From Thermoproteota archaeon (GTDB lineage: Archaea > Thermoproteota > Thermoprotei_A > EX4484-217-1): 64,000 nt of DNA. The translations under genes and the position numbers were made by a program. Positions 40,730 through 50,129 of this stretch are shown piece by piece. The notes beneath the pieces are model-generated. The model was given only the letters and a program-made list of their open reading frames with translations. It was not told the DNA's origin and ran no database searches. The stretch spans positions 37,183-101,182 of the forward strand of contig JAPDJU010000006.1 in assembly GCA_029258915.1 (NCBI GenBank), written 5' to 3'. Numbering within the stretch: position 1 is the first letter of the stretch; every line of letters starts with the position of its first letter.

Positions 40730-42220
40730 ATGGTGTGGGGCATAGTGATGCCAATTGAGGAAAGACTAATAATCATGGCGATTTCGGGTTTACTTGTTTT
40801 AGCAGGCAATTTTCCCCCCATTAGAGAAAGCAAGTTAAGCGTTACTTTAAGATCCATAGGCTACATTGTTCTTCTCTTAAATATACCACATGTAGACATA
40901 GTGAGTTCAATTCTCATCCTTGGAGGAGTATCAATTTCAGTAAGCTTAACAGGTTTTTCGCTTCATTATTCAAAAATTAAATATGAAACAACAAGTTTAG
41001 TTGTGCTTATCGATATTTTTGCTCTTGCAATATTATTTACCTTCTCCTCTAAATTTTTAATAGAACTAATTACGTTTTGGTTGTTAACAGAGCTGTTAGG
41101 TTTCTTCTTAATAGCATACGACTCTATCATTGGTGTAAGAAGAGAGGCCATGAATTCTGCTTTAAAGTATCTCCTATTTTCTATGATACCGACAGACGTA
41201 GCTCTCTTCATTTTACTCGCATTAACAGGCTTCAATAAAGCAGCACGCATACCTATACATGACTTGTTTGTAAATGTAGACTCGCCTATATTGACAGCAT
41301 TAGTCATAATAGGTTTCTTTTCCAAAGCAGCTATTTTTCCGCTTCATTTCTGGCTGCCTGATGCTCACTCCATAGCTCCTGCTCCTGCTTCATCATTGCT
41401 TTCAGGCTTAATGGTTAAGATGGGTATTTATGGGCTTTACTTAGTGACTAAGTTTAATATAAATAAGGAAGCAGCATTTCTAACACTGTTCATACCAGCC
41501 TCAATTACAGCGATATATGGTGGCTTACAGGCCTCCATACAACATGACATTAAAAGAATTTTAGCCTATAGTACTACATCGCATATGGCGGTCATGGTTT
41601 TACTCTTATTCTTATATATGCTTCTTGGAGATAAAATATTTGTTTACACGCTTATGATATATGCACTCGCTCATATAATATATAAGGCCGGTTTATTTGC
41701 TGATTCAGGGTTGGTAGAGGTTTTAACGCATGAAAGAGTAGTGGGGAGGCTTGGATACGTAAGCAGAATTGTTCCCCTAGAAACCCTTGCTGTAATCCTT
41801 TTAACTTTATCAATGTTAGGCATGCCTCCGACAGTAGGTTTCCTTGCAAAACTCCTATTGTTTACATCAATTTCACACTATTTAACCTATTCGTGGATTT
41901 ACTTAGCTATATTGCTGATAATTTCTATCGAGATTTCTCTTACAGTTCTCTATAGTGTAAGGTATCTAAAAGTTCATATAACTAGTAAGGACATTATAAA
42001 TCTTAAGAAACTTAATCTTAAAGCACTTACAATGAAATATTACGTTGCATTAATGGCATTAATCTCAATAATAATAACCTTCACGCTCTCAATATTTGAA
42101 ACACTATATGTTGAAGAAATTAAGCTACTTGGAGAGATAATACCAGTGCTGTATGTTTCATTAGCTATGCTTTTGTTTATCTCGCTACCATTATATGAAC
42201 TATTTAGAGTGGAAAAATGA
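40730..42220 (+). CDS. Second NuoL/M-like antiporter subunit
   Basis: 496 aa; FFSKAAIFPLHFWLPDAHSIAPAPASSLLSGLMVKMGIYGLY; DIKRILAYSTTSHM. Confidence 0.9.
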   Translation: MVWGIVMPIEERLIIMAISGLLVLAGNFPPIRESKLSVTLRSIGYIVLLLNIPHVDIVSSILILGGVSISVSLTGFSLHYSKIKYETTSLVVLIDIFALAILFTFSSKFLIELITFWLLTELLGFFLIAYDSIIGVRREAMNSALKYLLFSMIPTDVALFILLALTGFNKAARIPIHDLFVNVDSPILTALVIIGFFSKAAIFPLHFWLPDAHSIAPAPASSLLSGLMVKMGIYGLYLVTKFNINKEAAFLTLFIPASITAIYGGLQASIQHDIKRILAYSTTSHMAVMVLLLFLYMLLGDKIFVYTLMIYALAHIIYKAGLFADSGLVEVLTHERVVGRLGYVSRIVPLETLAVILLTLSMLGMPPTVGFLAKLLLFTSISHYLTYSWIYLAILLIISIEISLTVLYSVRYLKVHITSKDIINLKKLNLKALTMKYYVALMALISIIITFTLSIFETLYVEEIKLLGEIIPVLYVSLAMLLFISLPLYELFRVEK

Positions 42221-47850: not shown

Positions 47851-48021
47851 TTACCTTCTACCATAACCTCTCTGAAAAGCCATTTGTTGCTGAGCAAGTC
47901 TTCTAACATATTCTCTTCTATTCCTAAGCCTTGGAGCTAAATTCTTCCTAGGCTTAGCTGGAATTTTAGGCGTCTGGCTTCTGACCTTTCCAGCTTTAGT
48001 TATTGAACCATGAGATGGCAT
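47851..48021 (-). CDS. rps30e: 30S ribosomal protein S30e (not in the supplied ORF track)
   Basis: 56 aa: [56 protein letters not shown]. Confidence 0.95.
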
Positions 48022-48151
48022 ATGTTATCACCAAGTTTTTCCGATAAGGTGTTTTCTATGCTAACCCTTATTAAGCTTATCGCTTACCTTGAAGCTAATA
48101 TTTTAATTAGTGTAGCTTAAATAATTATATGTAGCAATTCAATATAGGAAT

Positions 48152-48166
48152 CTGAATATGTGATGA
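48152..48166 (+). promoter_or_regulatory. k-loop-like element (CUGA-N4-GUGAUGA) in the nop5 leader
   Basis: CTGA 48152-48155, loop ATAT, GTGATGA 48160-48166, 7 nt before the GTG start of nop5. Confidence 0.6.
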
Positions 48167-48172
48167 TAGGAG

Positions 48173-49405
48173 GTGGTTGGAATCAAAGCATACCTTGTAG
48201 ATCACACTATAGGCGTTTTCGCGTTTGACGATAAAGGTAATGTCCTAGCCTACGAAGTAGCTAAAGGAGACTTAGAGAAAGTTGTTGAACATGTTTTTAA
48301 AATTGAAAGAGGTGAACCTTCAGAACTCCATGAAAAAGTTTTGGACAAACTATCGAAAATAGAAGGTATAGACAAAGTAGTAATTGAAGATGAAAGGCTG
48401 GCTAAAATAGTTACTTCTAAAGGATTAGATGTTGAAATAGAACCAGGAAATGCTATTACTAGAATGTTTAGAGAAAATGTAGTAGATTATGCTGTAAAAT
48501 ACGGATTTGCATTATCTCCTGAAGAATACTATTCTAAAATGCATGAAATATCGGTAATTCTTACAAGGAGAAAAGTTAGAAAGGCTGTTGAAAAAAGAGA
48601 CTTACTTGCCGCACAAGGTGTTAGAGCAATAGACGATATTGATAGAACAGTTAACCTATTTGTAGCAAGACTTAGAGAATGGTATTCACTACACTTCCCA
48701 GAACTAGATGATCTTATAAAAGAACATGAAGACTATGCTAGGTTAGTTTATGAACTTGGTCTAAGAGAAAACTTTACCAAAGAAAACCTCGTTAAACTAG
48801 GCTTTAGTGAGGGTAAAGCCAATAGAATAGCTGAAGCTGCTAAGAAGAGTATGGGCGCCGATATTACAGATTTCGACATTAAAACAATGCAAACTTTGGC
48901 AGACATAATATTGAAACTTTACCGTTTAAGAGCAGACATAGCCCAGTATATAGGCGATGTTATGAGAGAAGTAGCTCCAAACGTAACAGCGCTTGTAGGT
49001 CCACTCCTCGGAGCTCGATTAATATCTTTAGCCGGAGGCTTAGAAGAACTAGCAAGACTACCTGCAAGCACTATACAGGTATTAGGTGCTGAAAAAGCAC
49101 TTTTCAGAGCATTAAGAACAGGAGGTAAACCACCAAAACATGGGGTGATATTCCAGTTCCCTGAAATACATAGATCTCCTAGATGGCAAAGAGGTAAAAT
49201 TGCAAGAGCCTTAGCAGGTAAGCTAGCTATTGCTGCACGTGTTGACGCTTTTACAGGGCAGTATATAGGCGACCAGCTTAAGGAAACATTAAGTAAGAGA
49301 ATAGAAGAAGTAAAGAAGCTCTATCCTAAACCGCCAAGACGTAGAGAGGAAGTAAGACCTAGACCGCGTAAAAGAGAAAGGCCTAGAAGGAGAAAGAGAA
49401 AATAG
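48173..49405 (+). CDS. nop5: C/D box sRNP core protein Nop5 (Nop56/58-like)
   Basis: APNVTALVGPLLGARLISLAGGLEELARLPASTIQVLGAEKALFRALRTGGKPPKHGVIFQFPEIH; basic tail. Confidence 0.97.
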   Translation: MVGIKAYLVDHTIGVFAFDDKGNVLAYEVAKGDLEKVVEHVFKIERGEPSELHEKVLDKLSKIEGIDKVVIEDERLAKIVTSKGLDVEIEPGNAITRMFRENVVDYAVKYGFALSPEEYYSKMHEISVILTRRKVRKAVEKRDLLAAQGVRAIDDIDRTVNLFVARLREWYSLHFPELDDLIKEHEDYARLVYELGLRENFTKENLVKLGFSEGKANRIAEAAKKSMGADITDFDIKTMQTLADIILKLYRLRADIAQYIGDVMREVAPNVTALVGPLLGARLISLAGGLEELARLPASTIQVLGAEKALFRALRTGGKPPKHGVIFQFPEIHRSPRWQRGKIARALAGKLAIAARVDAFTGQYIGDQLKETLSKRIEEVKKLYPKPPRRREEVRPRPRKRERPRRRKRK

Positions 49406-49418
49406 AAAAACGGTTTGG

Positions 49419-50129
49419 GTGAATAATATGAGTCAGCCAATAAATGTTAAACCACATGAGAAATTTGAAGGAGTATATATCGTTGAGCTTGAAGATGGAT
49501 CATTAAAAATAACAACTAAAAACCTAACTCCAGGCAGGAGAGTTTATGGTGAACGGCTATTTAGGATAGGTGGCGTTGAATATAGGGAATGGAATCCGTA
49601 TCGTAGTAAGCTTGGAGCAGCTATTTTAAAGGGAATATCTCATGTACCGTTGAGAAGTGGAGTTAAAGTACTATACCTTGGTGTAGCTACGGGAACAACT
49701 GCAAGCCACGTTTCAGACATTATTGGTTTAGAAGGTAAACTCTACGGTATAGAGTTCGCCTATAGAGTTATGAGAGAATTTGTAGCATTAGCCGAGATTA
49801 GAAAGAACCTATACCCAATATTAGCAGATGCAAGACTACCACATACATACAGGAATGTAGTTGAAGAAGTTGATGTAATATATTCTGATGTAGCACAACC
49901 TGAACAAGCAAAACTAGTTGCTGATAATGCGGACTATTTCCTTAAAGAAGAAGGCCATCTACTATTAGCTATTAAAGCTAGAAGCATAGATGTTACAGCA
50001 GAACCTTCAGAAGTTTACAGGAGAGAAATAGATACTTTGAAGAATAGAGGATTCAAAATAATAGATGTAGTCCATTTAGAACCTTATGATAAAGATCACG
50101 CAATGGTGTTAGCTGTATTTAAACCTTAG
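49419..50129 (+). CDS. flpA: Fibrillarin-like rRNA 2'-O-methyltransferase
   Basis: EYREWNPYRSKLGAAILKG, VLYLGVATGTTASHVSDI, VYSDVAQPEQ-like. Confidence 0.97.
   Translation: MNNMSQPINVKPHEKFEGVYIVELEDGSLKITTKNLTPGRRVYGERLFRIGGVEYREWNPYRSKLGAAILKGISHVPLRSGVKVLYLGVATGTTASHVSDIIGLEGKLYGIEFAYRVMREFVALAEIRKNLYPILADARLPHTYRNVVEEVDVIYSDVAQPEQAKLVADNADYFLKEEGHLLLAIKARSIDVTAEPSEVYRREIDTLKNRGFKIIDVVHLEPYDKDHAMVLAVFKP

Follow-up and report, generated by a model that had tools for sequence, protein, structure and literature searches.

The idea that L7Ae controls nop5 is already published. In EMSA, L7Ae bound an RNA made up of the first 125 nt of S. acidocaldarius nop5 mRNA, and regulation of all three C/D sRNP proteins was proposed (Daume et al. 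2017, PMC5539422). In T. kodakarensis, L7Ae sites have been reported in the aNOP56 (TK0184) and Cbf5 transcripts (Jager et al. 2014, PMC4247193). In the published model for the leader of l7ae itself, the free leader is open, and a hairpin that L7Ae induces beside the Shine-Dalgarno (SD) sequence lowers translation. Here we describe a candidate L7Ae site in front of nop5 in an uncultured heat-loving archaeon, a further example of this known kind that takes the form of a plain D'/C' k-loop. A literature search with partial coverage found no paper on a plain D'/C' k-loop before nop5.

The k-loop lies in a window of 64,000 nt, by which we mean the whole stretch of DNA that was analyzed, from a 1.6-Mb genome (G000) that is 99.7% complete. 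The nop5 product was recognized as Nop5 by two Pfam families (PF01798, Nop, 2e-76; PF21572, 6e-38), and together with the fibrillarin profile (Table 1) this bears out the identification of a nop5-flpA pair made in a preliminary description of the sequence. The two genes are presumably cotranscribed. On the minus strand, an eS30 ribosomal protein gene identified by translation occupies positions 47851 to 48021; the two genes diverge, which leaves nop5 with a short divergent promoter region to itself. An eS30 start sequence likewise lies upstream of nop5 in the Sulfolobaceae, which makes this an old gene pair. Read on the plus strand from 48116, the sequence runs CTTAAATAATTATATGTAGCAATTCAATATAGGAAT CTGA ATAT GTGATGA TAGGAGGTGGTTGGAATCAAAGCA, with the 15-nt motif (CTGAATATGTGATGA) at positions 48152 to 48166. 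From the usual spacing of 26 nt after the TATA-like box, transcription would start near 48146 to 48150.

Table 1. Features of the nop5 locus (positions within the window).
Feature	Position	Strand	Remarks
TATA-like box CTTAAATA	48116..48123	+	Read from sequence
k-loop 5' (Kt-n) strand	48150..48155	+	Outer-stem A-U, then D'-like CUGA (48152-48155)
k-loop terminal loop AUAU	48156..48159	+	4-nt spacer; identical in congener G001
k-loop 3' (Kt-b) strand	48160..48167	+	C'-like GUGAUGA (48160-48166), then U48167 pairing with A48150
Shine-Dalgarno-like GGAGGTG	48169..48175	+	1 nt past k-loop stem; overlaps GTG 48173; kept in congener G001
nop5 (aNOP5/56)	48173..49405	+	C/D sRNP core protein; GTG start as called; 410 aa
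Fibrillarin (flpA)	49419..50129	+	13 nt past nop5 end; PF01269, 1e-104

The consensus D'/C' k-loop that had been noted before nop5 is present, with CUGA followed by RUGAUGA inside the 3 to 9 nt typical of boxes D' and C'. The n-strand reads AUCUGA and the b-strand UGUGAUGAU, with U.U at 3b:3n as in box C/D. Outside the tandem G.A, the predicted stem has three Watson-Crick pairs (C-G, U-A, and A-U). The element was also said to fill nearly the whole of a short leader next to the SD sequence, and its stem does end at 48167, adjoining the SD-like sequence of nop5, an L7Ae-related gene; the gap between GTGATGA and the GTG is 6 nt, where 7 nt had been given. In its predicted fold, the short leader alone is nearly unstructured (-2.1 kcal/mol, z about 0), which fits the need of a protein-dependent switch. 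No Rfam family matched at gathering score anywhere in the window.

Each of the closest described systems shares part of this arrangement. The S. acidocaldarius operon (saci_1347; PMC5539422) likewise has nop5 first and then fibrillarin, with L7Ae as the proposed regulator acting at the 5' mRNA end. However, the RNA bound in that species consists of the initial 125 nt of the message, whereas the predicted site here is a consensus D'/C' k-loop in the putative leader. Because the TATA boxes of the Sulfolobaceae nop5 genes examined imply little or no leader, we infer that the S. acidocaldarius site is probably in the coding part. When we sought to place that site, we found no consistent coding-region k-turn common to the Sulfolobaceae. 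The aNOP56 transcript of T. kodakarensis (PMC4247193) similarly has a predicted L7Ae site near its 5' end, but it belongs to another phylum, was predicted from transcript maps, and comes with a proposed role in processing besides regulation. With the D'/C' k-loop found in C/D guide sRNAs of archaea, the nop5 element shares CUGA, a spacer of 3 to 9 nt, and RUGAUGA; it differs in standing alone in an mRNA leader, with neither boxes C and D nor guides.

The archaeal l7ae k-turn (Daume et al. 2017; Huang et al. 2019, PMC6298567) is similar in having a 5' n-strand and a 3' b-strand, a very short or absent C-helix, a position adjoining the SD, and a stem that is too weak to form unless L7Ae is bound. 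It differs in its sequence (GACGA..GGAGGATGA), in the C-G pair that follows the G.A tandem, and in being conserved through the class, whereas the sequence of the nop5 element is that of boxes D' and C', with U.U, and only a few lineages have it. Repression by L7Ae through k-turns in archaeal leaders, invoked in the preliminary description, is published, and the known l7ae k-turn occurs in the same genome. Specifically, the organism's own l7ae gene lies outside the window on contig C3 (31.4 kb), and its leader (AACGACGAGATAGCCGAGGAGGATGAGTAAGTATG) has the published autoregulatory layout (C-GA-C ... GG-GAU-GA-G). Of the 29 class genomes examined, nearly all carry a close form upstream of l7ae, and among 865 leaders of G000 the element is unique to l7ae. 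Taken as a positive control, this k-turn makes it very probable that the organism has L7Ae feedback.

The preliminary description had looked to relatives for conservation upstream of nop5. In G001, the sole congener with nop5 (Nop5 89% identical), the 16-nt core TCTGAATATGTGATGA is unchanged. There are six differences in positions 48117 to 48179, and two of them, A48150G and T48167C, fall on pairing partners, so that the outer stem pair changes from A-U to G-C and the stem becomes C-G, U-A, and G-C. Permutation of the six differences over this interval puts two of them on opposite sides of some stem pair with probability 0.023, and yields the observed outcome, in which the outer stem pair is hit and the core is left untouched, with probability 0.002; both values are post hoc. 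At fourfold sites of nop5, 75 of 140 differ between the two genomes (54%), against which the near-intact leader is clearly under constraint, and the promoter likewise. Because the whole stretch from TATA to start is conserved (57/63), conservation of the core alone is weak evidence (P = 0.16), and the likeness of the GUGAU half to a Shine-Dalgarno sequence accounts for some of the conservation of that half. With two sequences only, the standard covariation control is uninformative.

A similar layout occurs in G024, which belongs to another family (Nop5 67% identical). There, GTCTGACCCGGGTGTGATGAGTATG reads CTGA-N7-GTGATGA and stops 2 nt short of the nop5 ATG, with a stem of C-G and U-A only outside the tandem G.A. 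Most other motif matches in the G024 genome have C-like boxes, while the match in the nop5 leader has no C/D partner. The class contributed 112 nop5 leaders, four of which had a strict match, where dinucleotide shuffles averaged 0.03. One of these, L019 in G018 (CTGATATATGATGA), contains the start codons themselves, in its C' box; it was counted apart, as SD-like and start sequence probably make up this match by coincidence. Conservation before nop5 is not general: the element is kept in G001 and occurs in similar form in G024, which with G000 makes 3 of the 112 leaders, representing two lineages. The motif is missing from about 108 other leaders, including that of G003, the only same-order relative with nop5, which makes it a lineage-specific trait and not a general feature of nop5. 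Among closer relatives, the G002 and G006 assemblies lack the 5' part of nop5, and the start is missing from a further fragment (L039, 86% identical). A general scan for k-turns and k-loops returned matches in 14 of the 112 leaders, compared to 7.8 in shuffles (2 of 100 shuffles reached 14). The individual matches have no element in common, and therefore we do not claim a class-wide nop5 k-turn. As a separate observation on this gene, two genomes from a single genus, g26, have a nop5 that runs on past an in-frame TGA (L016 in G036, and G109:C1:48714-49919), which may reflect an intron, a frameshift, or sequencing.

We think it reasonably probable that the lone box D'/C' k-loop in the nop5-fibrillarin leader is an L7Ae-controlled translational switch. 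Free L7Ae, available once guide RNAs and rRNA sites are saturated, would bind the k-loop near the predicted 5' end of the mRNA (48146 to 48150). Binding would stabilize a small hairpin of the C-G, U-A, and A-U or G-C pairs, the U.U, and the tandem sheared G.A/A.G, closed by AUAU. The 3' edge of this hairpin, 1 nt from the GGAGGTG, would block the SD; ribosome occlusion would then lower the translation of Nop5 and fibrillarin, and the RNA-methylating machine would limit its own protein supply. This proposal draws on the motif and where it lies, on the congener having kept it with a compensated stem pair, on the missing sRNA partners, and on the l7ae k-turn in the same genome; from these we infer the mRNA start, the binding of L7Ae, the occlusion, and the sense of the control, which would be repression. 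A bolder version, which we regard as quite unlikely, is that the assembled L7Ae-Nop5(-fibrillarin) complex, and not L7Ae by itself, reads the k-loop, such that Nop5 would directly repress its own operon and the D'/C' element of guide RNAs would have been co-opted as a product-sensing switch independently in at least two lineages (the genus of G000 and G001, and G024).

The GGAGG reported next to the k-loop is there, 1 nt past the stem, but it spans 48169 to 48173 and overlaps the G of the GTG, so GGAGGTG is unable to serve a start at 48173. Judging from the sequence, either GTGAT in the C' box, which as GUGAU is complementary to the 3' end of 16S rRNA, would be the SD for GTG 48173, or GGAGGTG would serve a start further downstream. 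Many homologues have their initiator Met where the alignment places ATC (48182) in this genome and ATT in G001. We have kept GTG 48173 as the conventional call, and a nonstandard nop5 start codon (ATC/ATT) is conceivable. Under both options, the k-loop occupies the position of the initiating ribosome.

The most serious alternative to an L7Ae-controlled switch is coincidence: GUGAUGA would be SD-related, CTGA would stand 4 nt before it by accident, and L7Ae would have no control over nop5 here. To gauge this, leader statistics were taken from 865 mechanically called genes covering 861 kb of G000. RTGATGA is present in 26 of these leaders (3.0%), and the probability of CTGA 3 to 9 nt before any given point is 0.020, which gives a joint chance of about 6e-4 per leader. 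The full motif occurs in two of the 865 leaders, that of nop5 and one inside a C/D-sRNA-like gene just upstream of an ORF (L040). In the 1.6-Mb genome as a whole, there were 15 strict matches, compared to 6 for the reversed pattern. At least 5 of the 15 resemble parts of C/D sRNA genes and most others lie inside or opposite ORFs; only the nop5 match immediately precedes a same-strand start without a C/D-sRNA-like gene. Within the window, the pattern occurs twice, compared to 0.26 expected from shuffles. The second match (minus strand, 41390 to 41405) faces a long ORF on the other strand and was put down to chance.

The site was picked after being seen, and perhaps ten genes would have been equally apt, so that the honest chance is near 1%; moreover, the statistics are weakened because the C' half doubles as a Shine-Dalgarno-like sequence. 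Coincidence also gains from the lack of the motif in most nop5 leaders of the class, that of the same-order G003 among them, and from congener conservation that covers the whole promoter-leader stretch. Set against it are the low frequency per leader, the compensated stem pair in G001, the like layout before nop5 in a second lineage (G024), and the known binding of nop5 mRNA by L7Ae in S. acidocaldarius. Chance is a poor explanation, and on balance we consider coincidence, with no L7Ae control of nop5 in this lineage, unlikely, though to be taken seriously.

It is also conceivable that L7Ae binding to the k-loop serves the processing or stability of the mRNA and not translational repression, as has been suggested for L7Ae sites near the 5' ends of T. 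kodakarensis transcripts (PMC4247193). However, the element abuts the SD, as in l7ae leaders with shown repression, and we regard a processing role as very unlikely. We give slightly less credence still to a hairpin that would act without L7Ae, formed by GUGAU and GGAGGU of the leader together with AUCAC and ACCUU of nop5 codons 5 to 10 (48160 to 48206). The predicted fold of positions 48146 to 48225 reaches -20.5 kcal/mol (z = -2.0) and in G000 is stabler than 97% of synonymous recodings. In G001, it is no better than recodings (48%), and the change at 48167 breaks one pair of the hairpin while preserving that of the k-loop. At 80°C, moreover, it is almost melted (-1.8 and -1.0 kcal/mol). A conserved SD-sequestering hairpin with the coding start, being strong in G000, unremarkable in G001, and nearly melted at 80°C, was accordingly rejected. 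The least likely alternative is a C/D box guide sRNA, or a relic or part of one, whose gene overlaps the nop5 leader. It is common for C/D sRNA genes to lie against or across ORFs (PMC7994747), and G000 has several further strict matches that are sRNAs of this type, but the sRNA matches of these genomes show the C box and D box partners, which are missing about 12 nt upstream and downstream, respectively, of the k-loop in G000, G001, and G024, in line with the original reading that it is not an sRNA.

If the L7Ae-controlled switch is real, this uncultured Thermoproteota lineage would join the ones where L7Ae governs how much of all three C/D sRNP proteins is supplied. The nop5 site would then come and go between lineages, unlike the deeply conserved l7ae k-turn, and it could take the form of a plain k-loop. 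A leader of roughly 25 nt would also be a compact and easily tested part.

Two further features of these genomes were noted. A probable C/D box sRNA is found in both congeners (L041, G000:C1:184423-184437; L180, G001:C54:11331-11346), with boxes and guides conserved and the D'-C' spacer changed. In addition, cbf5 is in two frames with a gap of ~46 nt (L205, G000:C3:16720-17740, outside the window), covering profile positions 6 to 73 and 67 to 322. The gene is split likewise in G003, and the arrangement resembles the known archaeal cbf5 intron.
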